IMG/VR virus record: IMGVR_UViG_3300035179_000052
Span: 1-29,041 of that record
DNA: 29,041 nt
Source: a virus
Strand: one strand, 5' to 3'
Shown: in pieces, positions 1,464 to 23,662 of the stretch
Position numbering within the stretch: the first letter of the stretch is position 1
Layout: the number at the start of each line of letters is the position of its first letter
Notes under the pieces: generated by a model
Told to the model about the DNA's origin: nothing
Databases searched by the model: none
The model's input: the letters and a program-made list of their open reading frames with translations, nothing else
Made by a program: the position numbers and the translations under genes

Positions 1464-2006
1464 TTAAAGAATTTCCTTTATATGATAAATTCTCTTAACA
1501 TACCCAATGGTTTCAGTTGAATGTTTGCCTGTAACCTTCTCTAAACACAAAGCTACTTTATCCCAGAATGGTGAATTTGCAATCTTTTTTGCTTTGATGA
1601 TATTCCCTGGTCCAGCATTGTAACCAGCAAACATGAATTTTCTTCTCTCAGGCTGACTAATCATCTTAAAGATTCCATCCACCTGTTTGTCATACTTAAC
1701 TCCGCCCTGAATGGATTCCTCTGCATCCCATCTATTCTTCACTCCTAACCCTGTTGCAGTGGCTGGCATGATCTGCATCAAACCTACCGCACCACACCAT
1801 GAGATTGCATTAGCGTCAAGATTACTCTCTGCAGTCCCTTGTGACTTGAACCACTTCCAATCATCAAAAGGAAAATAAAACTCTCCCCATCGTTTGAAGG
1901 AGAGGTCATATTTTATGGTGTATGCTGCACTCTCGCTGGCAAAATTAAGCAAAAGCAAGAGCAAGAATAAAGCCAGCAAGAATAATCGCAACTGCGACTG
2001 GGTCAT
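1464..2006 (-). CDS. Secreted SLT-type lytic transglycosylase (endolysin)
   Basis: 180 aa. Residues 1-28 are a signal peptide: a short polar start, a Leu-rich core at 7-20, then SESAA as a likely cleavage site. The soluble lytic transglycosylase fold follows: catalytic Glu60 in TAESNLD, the conserved GLMQIMP at 75-81 and AGYNAGPGNI at 127-136. It should cleave the glycan chain of peptidoglycan, forming 1,6-anhydro-muramic ends. Sec export would put it in the periplasm without holin help; a SAR-type retained signal is possible but the core is very Leu-rich. The start is supported by GAGGTAATC. It begins inside the holin-like gene (62-nt overlap). Confidence 0.88.
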   Translation of the reverse strand: MTQSQLRLFLLALFLLLLLLNFASESAAYTIKYDLSFKRWGEFYFPFDDWKWFKSQGTAESNLDANAISWCGAVGLMQIMPATATGLGVKNRWDAEESIQGGVKYDKQVDGIFKMISQPERRKFMFAGYNAGPGNIIKAKKIANSPFWDKVALCLEKVTGKHSTETIGYVKRIYHIKEIL

Positions 2007-2130
2007 TTTTGATTACCTCATCTGTGTCAAAAGCTTTGAAGTAGAAATAATCTATAAATCTCCATCCTGCAAAAAGGATAATCATAAATACGATTTTTCT
2101 TGCAATTGCTGTTAGAATAGTTTCAATCAT
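1945..2130 (-). CDS. Holin-like small membrane protein, two TM helices
   Basis: 61 aa with two hydrophobic helices: residues about 10-26 (ARKIVFMIILFAGWRF) and about 43-61 (DPVAVAIILAGFILALAFA), joined by a charged linker containing FDTDEVIKND. Size, helix number and the position directly upstream of the lysozyme, with which it overlaps in another frame, fit a class II holin. A GGAG site lies before the ATG. Holins are too diverse for motif proof, so the call rests on topology and context. Confidence 0.65.
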   Translation of the reverse strand: MIETILTAIARKIVFMIILFAGWRFIDYFYFKAFDTDEVIKNDPVAVAIILAGFILALAFA

Positions 2131-2143
2131 ATTGGCTCCATAG

Positions 2144-2557
2144 TTAAATTAGTTTTGAAGTTATTTTTCCATCTGAAAGATGTTCAATTTCTCTTCCCTG
2201 TCCAATAACTTCAATGTCATTCTTATCAAAATGACGAGTTCTTATAAACCTTATTCTTTCATCAGGAAAGATTTCTTTAGGGTAGTATTCCCACTCTATC
2301 CTCTCAGAACCAACCTTGTTCCCCATCAAATCTCTTAGCTCTGAAACCCTCAGCACTTGTCCATTTGGATTATCCTTACTTTCAACTTGAACCTCTTCCT
2401 GATAGTTCAAATCCTCAACGATTAGGTCTCTAAGATGCCAGACAAACTCCTTGAGCCTTCTCTCTGACATTGTAGAGAGTTTGTTTGTGATAGCATTGAT
2501 GATTTGCTTCTTGGTTGCCATTATCAATTGCTTTTGGGTTAAATCAAGAAATGACAT
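2144..2557 (-). CDS. Hypothetical protein
   Basis: 137 aa, not recognised. The ATG at 2557 is preceded by GAGGAGGC; an internal ATG at 2521 has no such site. The N-terminal half is basic and helical (MATKKQIINAITNKL, ERRLKEFVWHLRDLI). The C-terminal half has aromatic and acidic residues (ERIEWEYYPKEIFPDERI). It sits between the receptor-binding candidate and the holin, so it may be a tail accessory or a lysis-linked protein. No catalytic motif is visible. Confidence 0.6.
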   Translation of the reverse strand: MSFLDLTQKQLIMATKKQIINAITNKLSTMSERRLKEFVWHLRDLIVEDLNYQEEVQVESKDNPNGQVLRVSELRDLMGNKVGSERIEWEYYPKEIFPDERIRFIRTRHFDKNDIEVIGQGREIEHLSDGKITSKLI

Positions 2558-2558
2558 T

Positions 2559-3659
2559 TTAGTTGCCTCCTCGGACTAAAGCAACGACATAGCAGCTATT
2601 CTTAAAGGTGTAGTACAACTTGCCAGAGTAGAAATGCACGAGTATGACCTGAGTAACTTCATCGGGCCGTGTAGTAGACGACCAAGAATAATCACTGGTC
2701 GGCCAACTTGGAAATGCTGTCGCATTGGGCGCTGCGTCGGGTTGCTCCATATCTCTCAAATTTGCAAGTTCCAGATCATAAGGAATCCCCCAATCTCCAT
2801 ATCCCCCTAACAGTGCAACATTTATTCCCGACAAATAAGACCAAATGGATTGGCAGACGATCTTGATAGTTCTCGATCCACCTGCCACCTCAGCAATTAG
2901 CGTTTGATTCCCTGAATTAACCACGATATCAGTGTTGCCACCCGTGAAACTAACCGATTTGACCGCTAATCCAGGTAAATTGTTGACTGCACTTGCAAAT
3001 CCACTATTGACCAGAACCTGTCCTGCAAAGTATCGAGAGGATTCATCACTGCCCGTTATCCTTAAAATATTCCCTGCAACCATCGCCAAATCAGCAGCAG
3101 CGGGATGAAGAGTATAACATTTGGTTGCGTCATACCAATTTAACTTCCCATCTGACGTAGGCCCAACTTTGCCAGTCTGAACATATCTGGCCCATTCCAA
3201 TCTCTTTCTGGAATTGAGATCAATTACGGTATTACTAGAATGGGTTGCCCTCTTACAGATTGTGATGTATGCACCAGCAGCCTCAGCCACAGTCGCCTCA
3301 GTTGTCCTGATTGTCCCAGCAGCACCACCTGTTGAGATGGTATAGATACCATCATTCAGGCCTGATCCACGAATTCTTATTGTATCTCCAGTCAGAAATG
3401 TCGCCAGGAGATTCGCTGTGTCAGTAATCGTCCCTGGGGTTGTAGCAGCAAAGGCAATGGTCGCAGCGGCATATTCAGGTTCATCAACATTAACAGTGCC
3501 TGCATATTGCCCTGTAGTATTGATCTGATACCTCTTAGCAATACCAGTCTGTCTGTCCCCATCATCTCCAATGACATAACAAGTAAGTTGTCCTGTCTTA
3601 TACAGATTTCCCTTTGGAGGAATTCCTACCCTTATCCAACCCCCACCATGATCACGCAT
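2559..3659 (-). CDS. Lcl/DUF1566-domain virion protein, receptor-binding candidate
   Basis: 366 aa. The N-terminal third is a beta-rich module with FLTGDTIRIRGSGLNDGIYTI at its centre, seen in many phage tail proteins. From about residue 145 an Lcl/DUF1566 domain begins (VIDLNSRKRLEW, KLNWYDATKCY). It is interrupted by a beta insertion of about 100 residues and resumes with GGYGDWGIPYDLELANL, YSWSSTT, VHFYSGKLYY and a terminal VVALVRGG. This C-type-lectin-like fold is used by phages for cell binding and is a known target class of diversity-generating retroelements. No reverse transcriptase lies in the window. The 3' third looks more GC-rich than its surroundings. AGAGGTGAATC precedes the ATG. 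Confidence 0.75.
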   Translation of the reverse strand: MRDHGGGWIRVGIPPKGNLYKTGQLTCYVIGDDGDRQTGIAKRYQINTTGQYAGTVNVDEPEYAAATIAFAATTPGTITDTANLLATFLTGDTIRIRGSGLNDGIYTISTGGAAGTIRTTEATVAEAAGAYITICKRATHSSNTVIDLNSRKRLEWARYVQTGKVGPTSDGKLNWYDATKCYTLHPAAADLAMVAGNILRITGSDESSRYFAGQVLVNSGFASAVNNLPGLAVKSVSFTGGNTDIVVNSGNQTLIAEVAGGSRTIKIVCQSIWSYLSGINVALLGGYGDWGIPYDLELANLRDMEQPDAAPNATAFPSWPTSDYSWSSTTRPDEVTQVILVHFYSGKLYYTFKNSCYVVALVRGGN

Positions 3660-7841: not shown

Positions 7842-7921
7842 TTATGTTAACCCTGAAAGGATAAAACTGGTTCTTGGTTGGATGCAAATGAGATTTCCCA
7901 TCGTTAACATCTGTCTGACAT
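7842..7921 (-). CDS. Major capsid protein exon 3
   Basis: 26 codons including the stop, too short to show as a free ORF. The frame gives VRQMLTMGNLICIQP and ends ILSGLT before TAA. This is the usual C-terminal sequence of HK97-type capsid proteins, and it is missing from the exon 2 ORF, which runs instead into an intron stop. Splicing at 8607/7921 joins GCC-T to AT-GTC in frame. Confidence 0.75.
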
Positions 7922-10161
7922 CCTTTTGTTAACTGCATATTACTATGCAGAGCAGACTATATCATCACCTTCCACATCTAAAAGGGCACTGCGTATAGTC
8001 GTTGAGGGGATATCATATCTTCCTTCTTGCTTTAGTTCATGCAGCTTTTTTATTTGTGTTAGAATAAATTCATCATAGGTAAGAGATAAGCCTCTTTTAC
8101 CATTCGTCTTTTCTCCAAGTGTTACTTTTCTATACACAATCGCCAATAGAGAGATTGCTTGATCCTTCTTTATTACCAAATAAGGAAGCAACCGAGGAAT
8201 AATTGTTGATAAATTATAATTCCCTCGGATAGATAAACTACCAACCCAGAACTTTCTGTTCTCTCTCTTACCCATAATAAGATGGCTTTTTACACCAATA
8301 GATTCGTAAATTTGCTGTGCTTTTTCCAAAGCCAATTTATTTGAGTTTGAAACAACCAAAGAGCAAATAAGAGTTTTAGGTCTGGTAGGAGCTTTCTTAT
8401 CATTCCAAAAATGAGTAGTTAAGCAACCTTCTCCATCAATTAAACCTGCAAGCCAAGCAAGATCTAACTCTAATTGGATATCTTCCCTGCGAATTGTCCC
8501 AGCTTCAGAATTTTTACCATTCTGGGTATCTGAAGGTTTAAGGAGTTCCTCGCATATAGCAGTGTTATTCATTGATAAGTTTCCTCATCATGGCCCTAAT
8601 TCATTAAGGCATCAGCATCAACAGGGTTCTTCTCCGCAGTCCAATAGAAATTTCTCTTCCTATTGAGAACCAACTTCCAGTAATCAGTATTGAAACCGAG
8701 CATGTAACCTGAAGGGATATGGTTATCAACGATGATCTCCATATGACCATTAAAATTAATCCCTGTAAAACCAACCTCAGCAAGCTTGCTCTTACTATCA
8801 AGAAATCTCTGTTGAGGTTGGACCCTTGCCCAGAGCTTATCATAGATTGACTGTGTGGTGAAAGCAAGATCACATTTCTTCTGAGCAATCGTAGTCGATC
8901 CGATGGTTTGGTTGATAAGGTCAAGGGTGGCTGCTCCACCTGTTGAGTTCACATAACCCTTCCACCAGACATTACTCGCTCTGGAGATTCCACCATAGGA
9001 ATCGTAGATGGTACCATCATCAGATCCATTAAGAGCACCATCGAAGTCCTTAGATGAGTTCCCTGTCCCATCACCAACAAACATGGTCACGAAGTCATCA
9101 TGTGCGGTGAGGGTAGCATTTTCCATCCTAACCTGAAGGAGACCAATGATCTTCTCATCACCTTCTGTTTTAGCAAGATCGTCACCAGCGATGGTGACAT
9201 TGACATACACTTTGTTACCGCTTTGGCTCTTTATCCAAAGCATCTTCATATTACTATGAAGGTCGGACTATCTCATCCCTTACGGGCTGGGCACTCGTGT
9301 CGCTGTTATTGGTAGGTTCCTCAAGCGTTAGTCTCTGCACCTTCTCCTCTACATATTTACCATTCAAGGAGCTTGGCTCAGGGTTATCCTTCATCCTTAC
9401 GGTATGAGTCGGACCTTCCCTGAATTCACCCAGTTTTTCAAGAAAGTCTTGACTGAGTTTATGATTAAGGTTTCTCATCACAAACATGATTGAATCATAT
9501 AGAGTCTTCTCATCTTCACTTAATCGAACTCGTGAGGATCGTCCCTTTCGGAGATCCTGAAAAGCAAGAGCCAACTCTACTTGATCATTTTTAACCTTAA
9601 CGTAAGACTGAATTTTTCGGAGAAAATTCTCAGCTTGATTGTTCTGAAGGATCAATCTATAAACACCACTCTTTCCAGATGTCTGTGAATACATACCACC
9701 ACCAAACTCTTGATGCATCAACTGAAGTACAGGAAGATGCTGATTTGAAATGGTGATCCTTAAACTCCACAGAGGAGATGGATTTGGTCTGAATTTAGAT
9801 CGATCACTCTTAGCAATCAAGATACTTCCTTCTCCATCAAAAAATCCAGCAATATAAGCATAGTCAAGATCAATCATGCCACTATCCTCTAATTTAAGAG
9901 TTGATGGTTCTTCCAATTCCACTCAGCCAAGGTTGCAATCTTCTTGTAACCAATATCAAAAGTATCCATTCCTGAGTAAGAACCGCTTGCCAGCTTTCCA
10001 TAAATGACAGGCTGAGCAATCTTCGATCCACTATCAAAGACAACTTGACTCTTGGCTAAGAGTTTTGTCAAGATAGCATTACCTATAAAGATCTGCTCAA
10101 TAGCCTTTGGAAGATACTTTTTCTTAACAGCAGCATCCAAATCATCATAAGTTAAAGCCAT
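7842..10161 (-). CDS. Major capsid protein, gene in three exons (group I introns)
   Basis: Joined product 315 aa from exons 10161-9897, 9209-8607 and 7921-7842 (265+603+80 nt, in frame). It builds the HK97-type shell. Exon 1 reads MALTYDDLDAAVKKKYLPKA to AEWNWKNHQLL. Exon 2 continues with YVNVTIAGDDLAKTEGDEK, where LL/YVN is the inferred junction. Exon 3 restores the family ending (MGNLICIQP ... ILSGLT). Predicted 5' splice sites both have U before the cut in a P1 helix (CU|UAA), and both introns end in G. Splice sites come from reading frame, RNA pairing and the family ending, so each could be off by a few bases. AAGGAGGAAAT precedes the start. Confidence 0.82.
7922..8606 (-). ncRNA. Group I intron 2 in the capsid gene
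   Basis: 685 nt. Core helices visible on the minus strand: P1 CCTTA/TAGGG with a U·G pair at the cut; P3 CACTGC (8559-8564) with GCAGTG (7987-7992); P4 TGCGA (8550-8554) with TCGCA (8488-8492); P5 CCCAG/CTGGG (8522-8526, 8498-8502); P6 GATATC plus GGG (8477-8487) with GATATCCCC (8006-8014); P7 GACTATA (7994-8000) with TATAGTC (7955-7961); P9 CTGCATA-GTAA-TATGCAG (7933-7950). The order P3-P4-P5-P6-P7-P3-P7-P9 is the group I order. The endonuclease ORF fills the P6 loop and runs through the core on both sides. Confidence 0.85.
7943..8572 (-). CDS. LAGLIDADG homing endonuclease of intron 2
   Basis: 209 aa. One LAGLIDADG motif (LAGLIDGEG at 41-49), so it probably acts as a homodimer that cuts intronless capsid alleles to spread the intron. 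GAGGAAA precedes the ATG. The first ~35 codons (ICEELLKPSDTQNGKNSEAG region) are the P3-P6 core read as protein. The last ~30 codons cover P7 and P8, and the stop TAG is in P9. The middle (VKSHLIMGKRENRKFWVGSL, LPYLVIKKDQAISLLAI) matches the single-motif LAGLIDADG fold. No in-frame Met precedes the motif, so the start in the core seems real. Confidence 0.88.
   Translation of the reverse strand: MNNTAICEELLKPSDTQNGKNSEAGTIRREDIQLELDLAWLAGLIDGEGCLTTHFWNDKKAPTRPKTLICSLVVSNSNKLALEKAQQIYESIGVKSHLIMGKRENRKFWVGSLSIRGNYNLSTIIPRLLPYLVIKKDQAISLLAIVYRKVTLGEKTNGKRGLSLTYDEFILTQIKKLHELKQEGRYDIPSTTIRSALLDVEGDDIVCSA
8607..9209 (-). CDS. Major capsid protein exon 2
   Basis: Encodes about 200 residues, including VTIAGDDLAKTEGDEKIIGL, LLQVRMENATLTAHDDFVTM, a DGALNGSDDGTIYDSYGG loop, and FNGHMEIIVDNHIPSGYML near the 3' end, all typical of the central and P-domain parts of HK97-type capsid proteins. 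The open frame extends upstream into the intron 1 terminus (from 9249) and downstream to an intron 2 stop at 8596, so a simple ORF call would overstate both ends. Confidence 0.82.
9210..9896 (-). ncRNA. Group I intron 1 in the capsid gene
   Basis: 687 nt. Core elements on the minus strand: P4 TCAGGG (9418-9423) with CCCTGA (9378-9383) in the familiar CCCTGAGCCAAGC context; P6 CTCCT/AGGAG; the GGTGCAGAGACTA element with P7 GACTA (9329-9333) pairing with TAGTC (9266-9270) in GAGATAGTCCG; P9 CTTCATA-GTAA-TATGAAG (9244-9261); an extra hairpin GCTTTGG/CCAAAGC (9235-9241, 9220-9226). P3 was not clearly found. The 3' end TAACAAAG resembles TAACAAAAGG of intron 2, and the 5' end CT|TAAATTAGAGG resembles CT|TAATGAATTAGGG. 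Here the endonuclease gene lies 5' of the core. Confidence 0.82.
9254..9877 (-). CDS. LAGLIDADG homing endonuclease of intron 1
   Basis: 207 aa from the ATG at 9877, with AGAGGATA before it. An open GTG at 9922 lies inside exon 1 and is not needed. The motif IAGFFDGEG at residues 9-17 is a LAGLIDADG variant ending in the catalytic acidic residue. SLRITISNQHLPVLQLMHQEF and GVYRLILQNNQAENFLRKI follow the single-motif fold, likely a homodimer. The last ~65 codons (from about LNHKLSQDFLEKLGEFREG) run through P4 to P7, and the stop TAG lies in P9, as in the other intron ORF. Sequence identity with that ORF looks low by eye. Confidence 0.88.
   Translation of the reverse strand: MIDLDYAYIAGFFDGEGSILIAKSDRSKFRPNPSPLWSLRITISNQHLPVLQLMHQEFGGGMYSQTSGKSGVYRLILQNNQAENFLRKIQSYVKVKNDQVELALAFQDLRKGRSSRVRLSEDEKTLYDSIMFVMRNLNHKLSQDFLEKLGEFREGPTHTVRMKDNPEPSSLNGKYVEEKVQRLTLEEPTNNSDTSAQPVRDEIVRPS
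9897..10161 (-). CDS. Major capsid protein exon 1
   Basis: 88 codons plus one base. MALTYDDLDAAVKKKYLPKA opens the capsid protein, and GKLASGSYSGMDTFDIGYKK and ATLAEWNWK are typical of the N-arm and E-loop region. The reading frame meets a TAG at 9889, two codons after the predicted splice site, so without splicing only a 90-aa fragment would be made. AAGGAGGAAATAAA gives a very strong start, as expected for the most abundant virion protein. Confidence 0.82.
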
Positions 10162-23257: not shown

Positions 23258-23662
23258 ATGTCAAAAAGAGATTATACAAGTGTTACATTTGAAATAGAAA
23301 AAGAAGCCATGATTCCATTGGATATTATACCTATTTGTCCAATTTGTAAAAAACAATTTTTATCTAATTCAAAATCTCGTAAATATTGCTCACCCAAATG
23401 TGCAGAAAAGGCAACTAAAAAAGTTAGAGATGGTTTCATTCCTACTTTTTTAATTTTTGCAAGAGATGGATTCCGATGTCATTATTGTGGAAAGTCACCA
23501 CATACAGATCCAAATGTTTCCCTTATTGTTGATCACATCATTCCTCTTAGCAAAGGAGGAACTTCAACAGAAGAGAATCTAATTTCTTGTTGCCATCAAT
23601 GTAATGCAGAAAAAGGGCATCTTTTGTTAGAGCCAAAGATTGTTGAATTTTTAAAACATTAA
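23258..23662 (+). CDS. HNH endonuclease
   Basis: 134 aa behind GAGGGAGATATAAAG. An N-terminal zinc knuckle (ICPICKKQF, KYCSPKC) is followed by the HNH domain: FRCHYCGKSP, LIVDHIIPLSKGGTSTEENL, and ISCCHQCNAEKG. Catalytic His is in VDHIIP, with Asn in EENL and the second zinc pair CxxC. It may be a freestanding homing endonuclease or a phage nuclease for DNA processing. It is more AT-rich than its neighbours and is followed by a non-coding stretch, which fits an inserted gene. Confidence 0.85.
   Translation: MSKRDYTSVTFEIEKEAMIPLDIIPICPICKKQFLSNSKSRKYCSPKCAEKATKKVRDGFIPTFLIFARDGFRCHYCGKSPHTDPNVSLIVDHIIPLSKGGTSTEENLISCCHQCNAEKGHLLLEPKIVEFLKH

Follow-up and report, generated by a model that had tools for sequence, protein, structure and literature searches.

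The sequence analysed here, which we call the window, covers positions 1-29,041 of IMGVR_UViG_3300035179_000052, a metagenomic contig from an environmental tailed phage. Its capsid gene, on the minus strand (10161-7842), is broken into three reading frames by two inserts, each with a LAGLIDADG ORF; a first-pass annotation had described the three capsid fragments, the two inserts and the two ORFs, and all of them are found. The capsid ORF fragments, also on the minus strand, are 90 aa (10161-9889) and 217 aa (9249-8596) in length, plus a short 3' piece. As that annotation foresaw, a description made from ORFs only would report the 90-aa and 217-aa fragments and miss the final 26 residues.

The exon borders are fixed because two intronless relatives, L002 and L003, encode a capsid protein of 312 aa to which the exons align without gaps. 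Exon 1 (9904-10161, minus strand) has 86 codons, ends in AACCAT, and is ungapped to residues 1-86 of L002 and L003; the intron-bearing relative L007 is 79% identical to it in amino acids. Exon 2 (8607-9207, minus strand) starts with TATGTC, ends with GATGCCT, and is also ungapped to intronless relatives. Exon 3 with the stop codon (7842-7921, minus strand) encodes the last 25-26 residues, which are 100% identical in L005 and ungapped to the C-termini of L002, L003 and L007. Joining 10161-9904, 9207-8607 and 7921-7842 gives a capsid protein of 312 aa, and over this whole joined protein L002 and L003 are ungapped, with identities of 85% and 83%. Intronless relatives without the joined sequence had been named in advance as evidence against a split gene; L002 and L003 both encode it. 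The second junction (8607/7921) is the one originally proposed, and its product ...DADAYVRQ... matches the relatives. The first junction had been placed at 9897/9209, and the border is at 9904|9903 ... 9208|9207, a shift of 7 and 2 nt. The joins 9897/9209 and 8607/7921 do yield one open frame of 315 aa, the product first reported, but we rejected 9897/9209: it leaves just 1-3 bp of P1, and it adds three residues (Gln-Leu-Leu) found in no relative. The inserts had both been given as ~686 nt, which holds for intron 2 (685 nt) but not for intron 1 (696 nt).

The joined protein matches the PHROG 9953 major head protein (2.6e-46), its relatives include annotated major capsid proteins, and the gene order in the window (portal, hypothetical, capsid) is that of MW202803. 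Homology and gene order together identify the predicted product of the split gene as a phage major capsid protein. An AlphaFold2 model of the L002 capsid has a mean pLDDT of 32.6, too poor for a comparison with the HK97 fold. An interpretation of the inserts in the major capsid gene as two group I introns that carry LAGLIDADG genes accounts for all the evidence, and splicing itself is what RNA structure and comparison would predict.

Intron 1 (9208-9903, minus strand, 696 nt) sits between codons 86 (CAT) and 87 (TAT), follows a U and ends in G 9208. A search with the Rfam group I covariance model (RF00028, Intron_gpI), one of the checks originally suggested, gives a match at 9506-9244 of 83.5 bits (E 4.2e-20), above the gathering score of 50 bits. 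Exon CCAU and intron GUGG form P1, whose U.G pair marks the 5' splice site, and P10 pairs exon 2 UAU with an AUA just ahead of the guide. Homologs of intron 1 in L007/L008, L018, L024 and L025 have Rfam scores of 72-87 bits, and in this family P1 and P10 covary with the flanking exon sequence, P10 as UAU/AUA in the window, UAC/GUA in L007 and AUAC/GUAU in L018. A U before the intron and a terminal G are present in six of the six introns examined. P3, previously called clear for intron 2, is clear there, and it is clear in intron 1 too (CUGGG/CCCAG), with double compensatory changes. In an alignment of five homologous cores (window, L007, L018, L024 and L025), compensatory changes keep 28 of 50 predicted core pairs. 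With P7 added, 95.3% of the cells in the five-core alignment pair, compared to 33-44% for shifted partners. The covariation score is 0.580 versus 0.236 in shuffles, and 0/500 shuffles score as high, although the relatedness of the five sequences somewhat inflates these shuffle statistics. The Rfam score, the compensated P3-P9 helices, and P1, P10 and the terminal G identify intron 1 at the sequence level as a group I intron.

The ORF of intron 1 (9254-9877, minus strand, 207 aa, ATG at 9877) is I-CreI-like. Towards its 3' end it extends into the ribozyme core, and its stop codon lies in the P9 loop. It is open at the same length of 207 aa in the window and L007, and between the two its first 121 codons (the LAGLIDADG part) have a dN of 0.149 for a dS of 0.81; therefore the ORF has been maintained for its protein product.

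Introns occupy site 1 in the window, in L005 (a 57-kb contig of the same phage), in L007/L008, and, one nucleotide off, in L018. Site 2 is filled only in the window and L005, which has the same split capsid gene at 99.96% identity. Both sites are empty in L002, L003, L004 and L014-L017, and the L006 fragment spans only site 1, which is empty. The window capsid is nearer to that of intronless L002 (85% aa) than to that of intron-bearing L007 (75%). Between the window and L007, identity is 84.7% for the intron 1 DNA and 76.4% for exon 1, against 70.7% over the whole capsid coding sequence, while dS is 1.70 for the capsid and 0.81 for the endonuclease. An intron less diverged than its capsid gene, in a capsid nearer to an intronless relative, is as lateral spread predicts, and lateral homing of intron 1 appears to be the simplest reading of these comparisons. 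Synonymous sites are almost saturated, however, and the ribozyme core is itself under constraint, so the same pattern may instead come from repeated intron loss. A scan of bacterial genomes for a host prophage found no relative.

Intron 2 (7922-8606, minus strand, 685 nt) has a P1 formed by GCCU/GGGC, a U at the exon end, and a terminal G (G7922). The letters of its helices were checked individually. A P2 hairpin GAUGAG-GAAA-CUUAUC occupies 8574-8589, and the P3 5' strand CACUGC (8559-8564) has its partner GCAGUG at 7992-7987. P7 (7955-8000) pairs GACUAU at 8000-7995 with AUAGUC at 7960-7955, with the P3 3' strand and P8 in between, and P9 (CUGCAU/AUGCAG, 7933-7950), which is within the Rfam match, contains the TAG stop of the endonuclease; all of these are on the minus strand. 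The core helices of a group I intron are thus recognisable in the predicted fold (P1 with its U.G pair, the terminal G, P3, P7 and P9). The ORF of intron 2 (7943-8572, minus strand, 209 aa, I-MsoI-like) covers P3 to P9, and its stop codon lies in the P9 loop. The RF00028 search that had been suggested for this insert gives a match at 8161-7933 with an E of 1.3e-9 over 859 nt, but at 43.4 bits it stays below the gathering score of 50. The score falls under the cut-off because the ORF separates P1-P6 from P7-P9; it lowers the certainty that intron 2 is a group I intron and does not contradict it. We looked for a P10 at the intron 2 junction and saw none, and the relatives searched contain no diverged homolog of intron 2. 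Such a low score, with P10 and a diverged relative both missing, is what one would expect if intron 1 splices while intron 2 is a decayed or non-splicing insertion, leaving a virion capsid truncated after about residue 290. We consider this improbable: P1, P2, P3, P7 and P9 are intact, the ORF does no more than space the core helices apart and is itself full length, and the C-terminus encoded by exon 3 is preserved in the capsid family.

Both ORFs score above the Pfam PF00961 cut-off of 23.1 bits (30.8 bits for intron 1 and 23.4 bits for intron 2), and they include the motifs AGFFDGEGS and AGLIDGEGC. The first is nearest to I-CreI, with I-CreI family matches from 1e-12 to 1e-5, and the second to I-MsoI (1.2e-17), and the two are 24% identical to each other. 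Family match and motif make both of them putative members of the LAGLIDADG homing endonucleases. Annotated phage records contain no relative of the second one. Such inserts could also be free-standing endonuclease genes that break the capsid gene, with an intact capsid copy elsewhere, and L004 does have a free-standing LAGLIDADG gene directly before an intact capsid gene. That is very improbable here, since the inserts have group I cores whose splice signals are exact, and the 57-kb L005 has the same split gene, with no second capsid copy returned by our scans there. Finally, an assembly artefact joining unrelated pieces, conceivable for any metagenomic contig such as the window, has a negligible probability, as the same structure is on the longer contig L005 (which may not be independent of the window) and intron 1 is also in L007 and L008, contigs with different sample numbers.

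Comparison establishes, at the level of sequence, where the introns begin and end, their group I architecture, which families the ORFs belong to, and which relatives have or lack each intron. With high confidence, we propose that self-splicing group I introns with homing endonucleases have invaded this capsid gene at two sites, and that a 312-aa capsid protein is nevertheless made. In this model, group I introns would have entered the major capsid gene of a tailed phage at two sites, and each intron RNA would fold into a ribozyme and excise itself in a guanosine-initiated two-step reaction. Splicing would join codon 86 to codon 87 and complete codon 287, which would result in the normal capsid protein of 312 residues. 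The LAGLIDADG enzymes, of the single-motif (homodimer) type, would act on a related phage in the same cell by cutting its intronless allele, and repair of the cut allele would copy the intron in (homing). We infer that both introns splice and home and that their endonucleases are active.

The window and L007/L008 share the intron 1 position 86|87, and other members of the family are at 75|76 (L024), within codon 78 (L025), and within codon 86 (L018). These four slightly different capsid positions between codons 75 and 86 suggest repeated invasion. In more distant capsid genes (L048, L057, L061 and L086), LAGLIDADG inserts are found near codon 53. It seems to us about an even question whether codons 75-86 are a recurrent landing zone, used at shifted points by one I-CreI-like intron lineage, with distant capsids hit at about codon 53. 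In L057 and L059, at about 1800-3550, the distant capsid gene is apparently interrupted twice, by an HNH-bearing insert after ~16 codons and by a LAGLIDADG insert near codon 53, so that L057 probably has a second doubly split capsid gene. We do not classify the codon-53 insert of L057 as a group I intron, only as a probable insert: it has no convincing Rfam match, and a weak one (23.6 bits) belongs to the separate upstream insert. Separately, L125 (1-760) has an HNH ORF with a group-I-like tail, not above the Rfam cut-off, just before a distant-capsid part that matches residue 83, near site 1. In the viral contig L107 (3446-4343), there are three Rfam group I intron matches of 80-90 bits within 900 nt.

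The window portal gene (14808-11977, minus strand) includes an in-frame insert of 337 aa (13617-12607, minus strand) with a LAGLIDADG domain, intein-like, which begins with Cys and ends with Gly-Asn before a Thr. L004 is uninterrupted there (RPGQV|TSGVAIES). The insert has no match to an intein (Hint) family, and by its pattern and the empty site in L004 it looks like an intein. In L014, which has an intronless capsid, the portal, at 3-1907, bears a LAGLIDADG insert ~7 residues further on, after TSGVAIE, at another point of insertion within this one motif. The LAGLIDADG gene of L004 (3506-4000) is directly between a scaffold-like gene and the intronless capsid gene; it has no Rfam group I match around it, and we treat it as free-standing and not as intron-borne. 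The window also has an HNH endonuclease gene at 23258-23662 on the plus strand (PF01844, 46.6 bits).

I-CreI and I-MsoI are located in introns of algal chloroplast 23S rRNA. By sequence, the window ORFs are single-motif LAGLIDADG proteins as well, but their putative target is a capsid gene. The locus is a clean example, backed by comparison, of a virion gene with high expression that could be annotated correctly only by allowing for RNA splicing and that a plain ORF caller would misreport. As the related capsid genes have empty, single and double sites, phage intron gain, loss and position shift become testable. The intron endonuclease of phage PhiPA3 has been shown to hinder intronless rivals (PMC11620839), and the capsid-gene relatives would allow the same to be tested here.

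Two introns in a capsid gene had been called unusual. The two introns are real, but their rarity was overstated, because multiply split capsid genes have been published (PMC7886860), a single capsid intron is known (PMC3706429), and L057 is apparently doubly split. Among open-licence papers we found no published twin of the window capsid locus. The nearest proven case is the capsid intron of mycobacteriophage LittleE, where splicing was established by RT-PCR and the N-terminal sequence of the capsid (PMC3706429). It also is in the major capsid gene, with a U before it, a G at its end, and an I-CreI-related LAGLIDADG ORF (PMC3706429), but LittleE has one intron with its ORF on the opposite strand, whereas the window has two, whose ORFs lie on the coding strand and extend through the ribozyme core. 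Two or three group I introns per essential gene are found in Twort and the Bastillevirinae (PMC11878797 and its references), which have in common with the window the multiple introns within one essential phage gene, but there the genes are those of DNA polymerase, terminase and reductase, and the endonucleases are mostly HNH (PMC11878797). Several group I introns in a major capsid gene, as here, are present in the crAss-like Zeta group, where the capsid gene of cMAG OLRF01000054 is in five fragments and shows group I intron domains, and related groups combine introns and inteins (PMC7886860). Those phages have much larger genomes and belong to a different group; in the window there are two introns with a LAGLIDADG ORF in each, at sites checked against intronless relatives. 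The doubly split capsid gene belongs to an already known type, a well-supported assignment, and all of its parts are known; the value added here is the exact proof of the junctions, together with a set of insertion points that lie close to one another.
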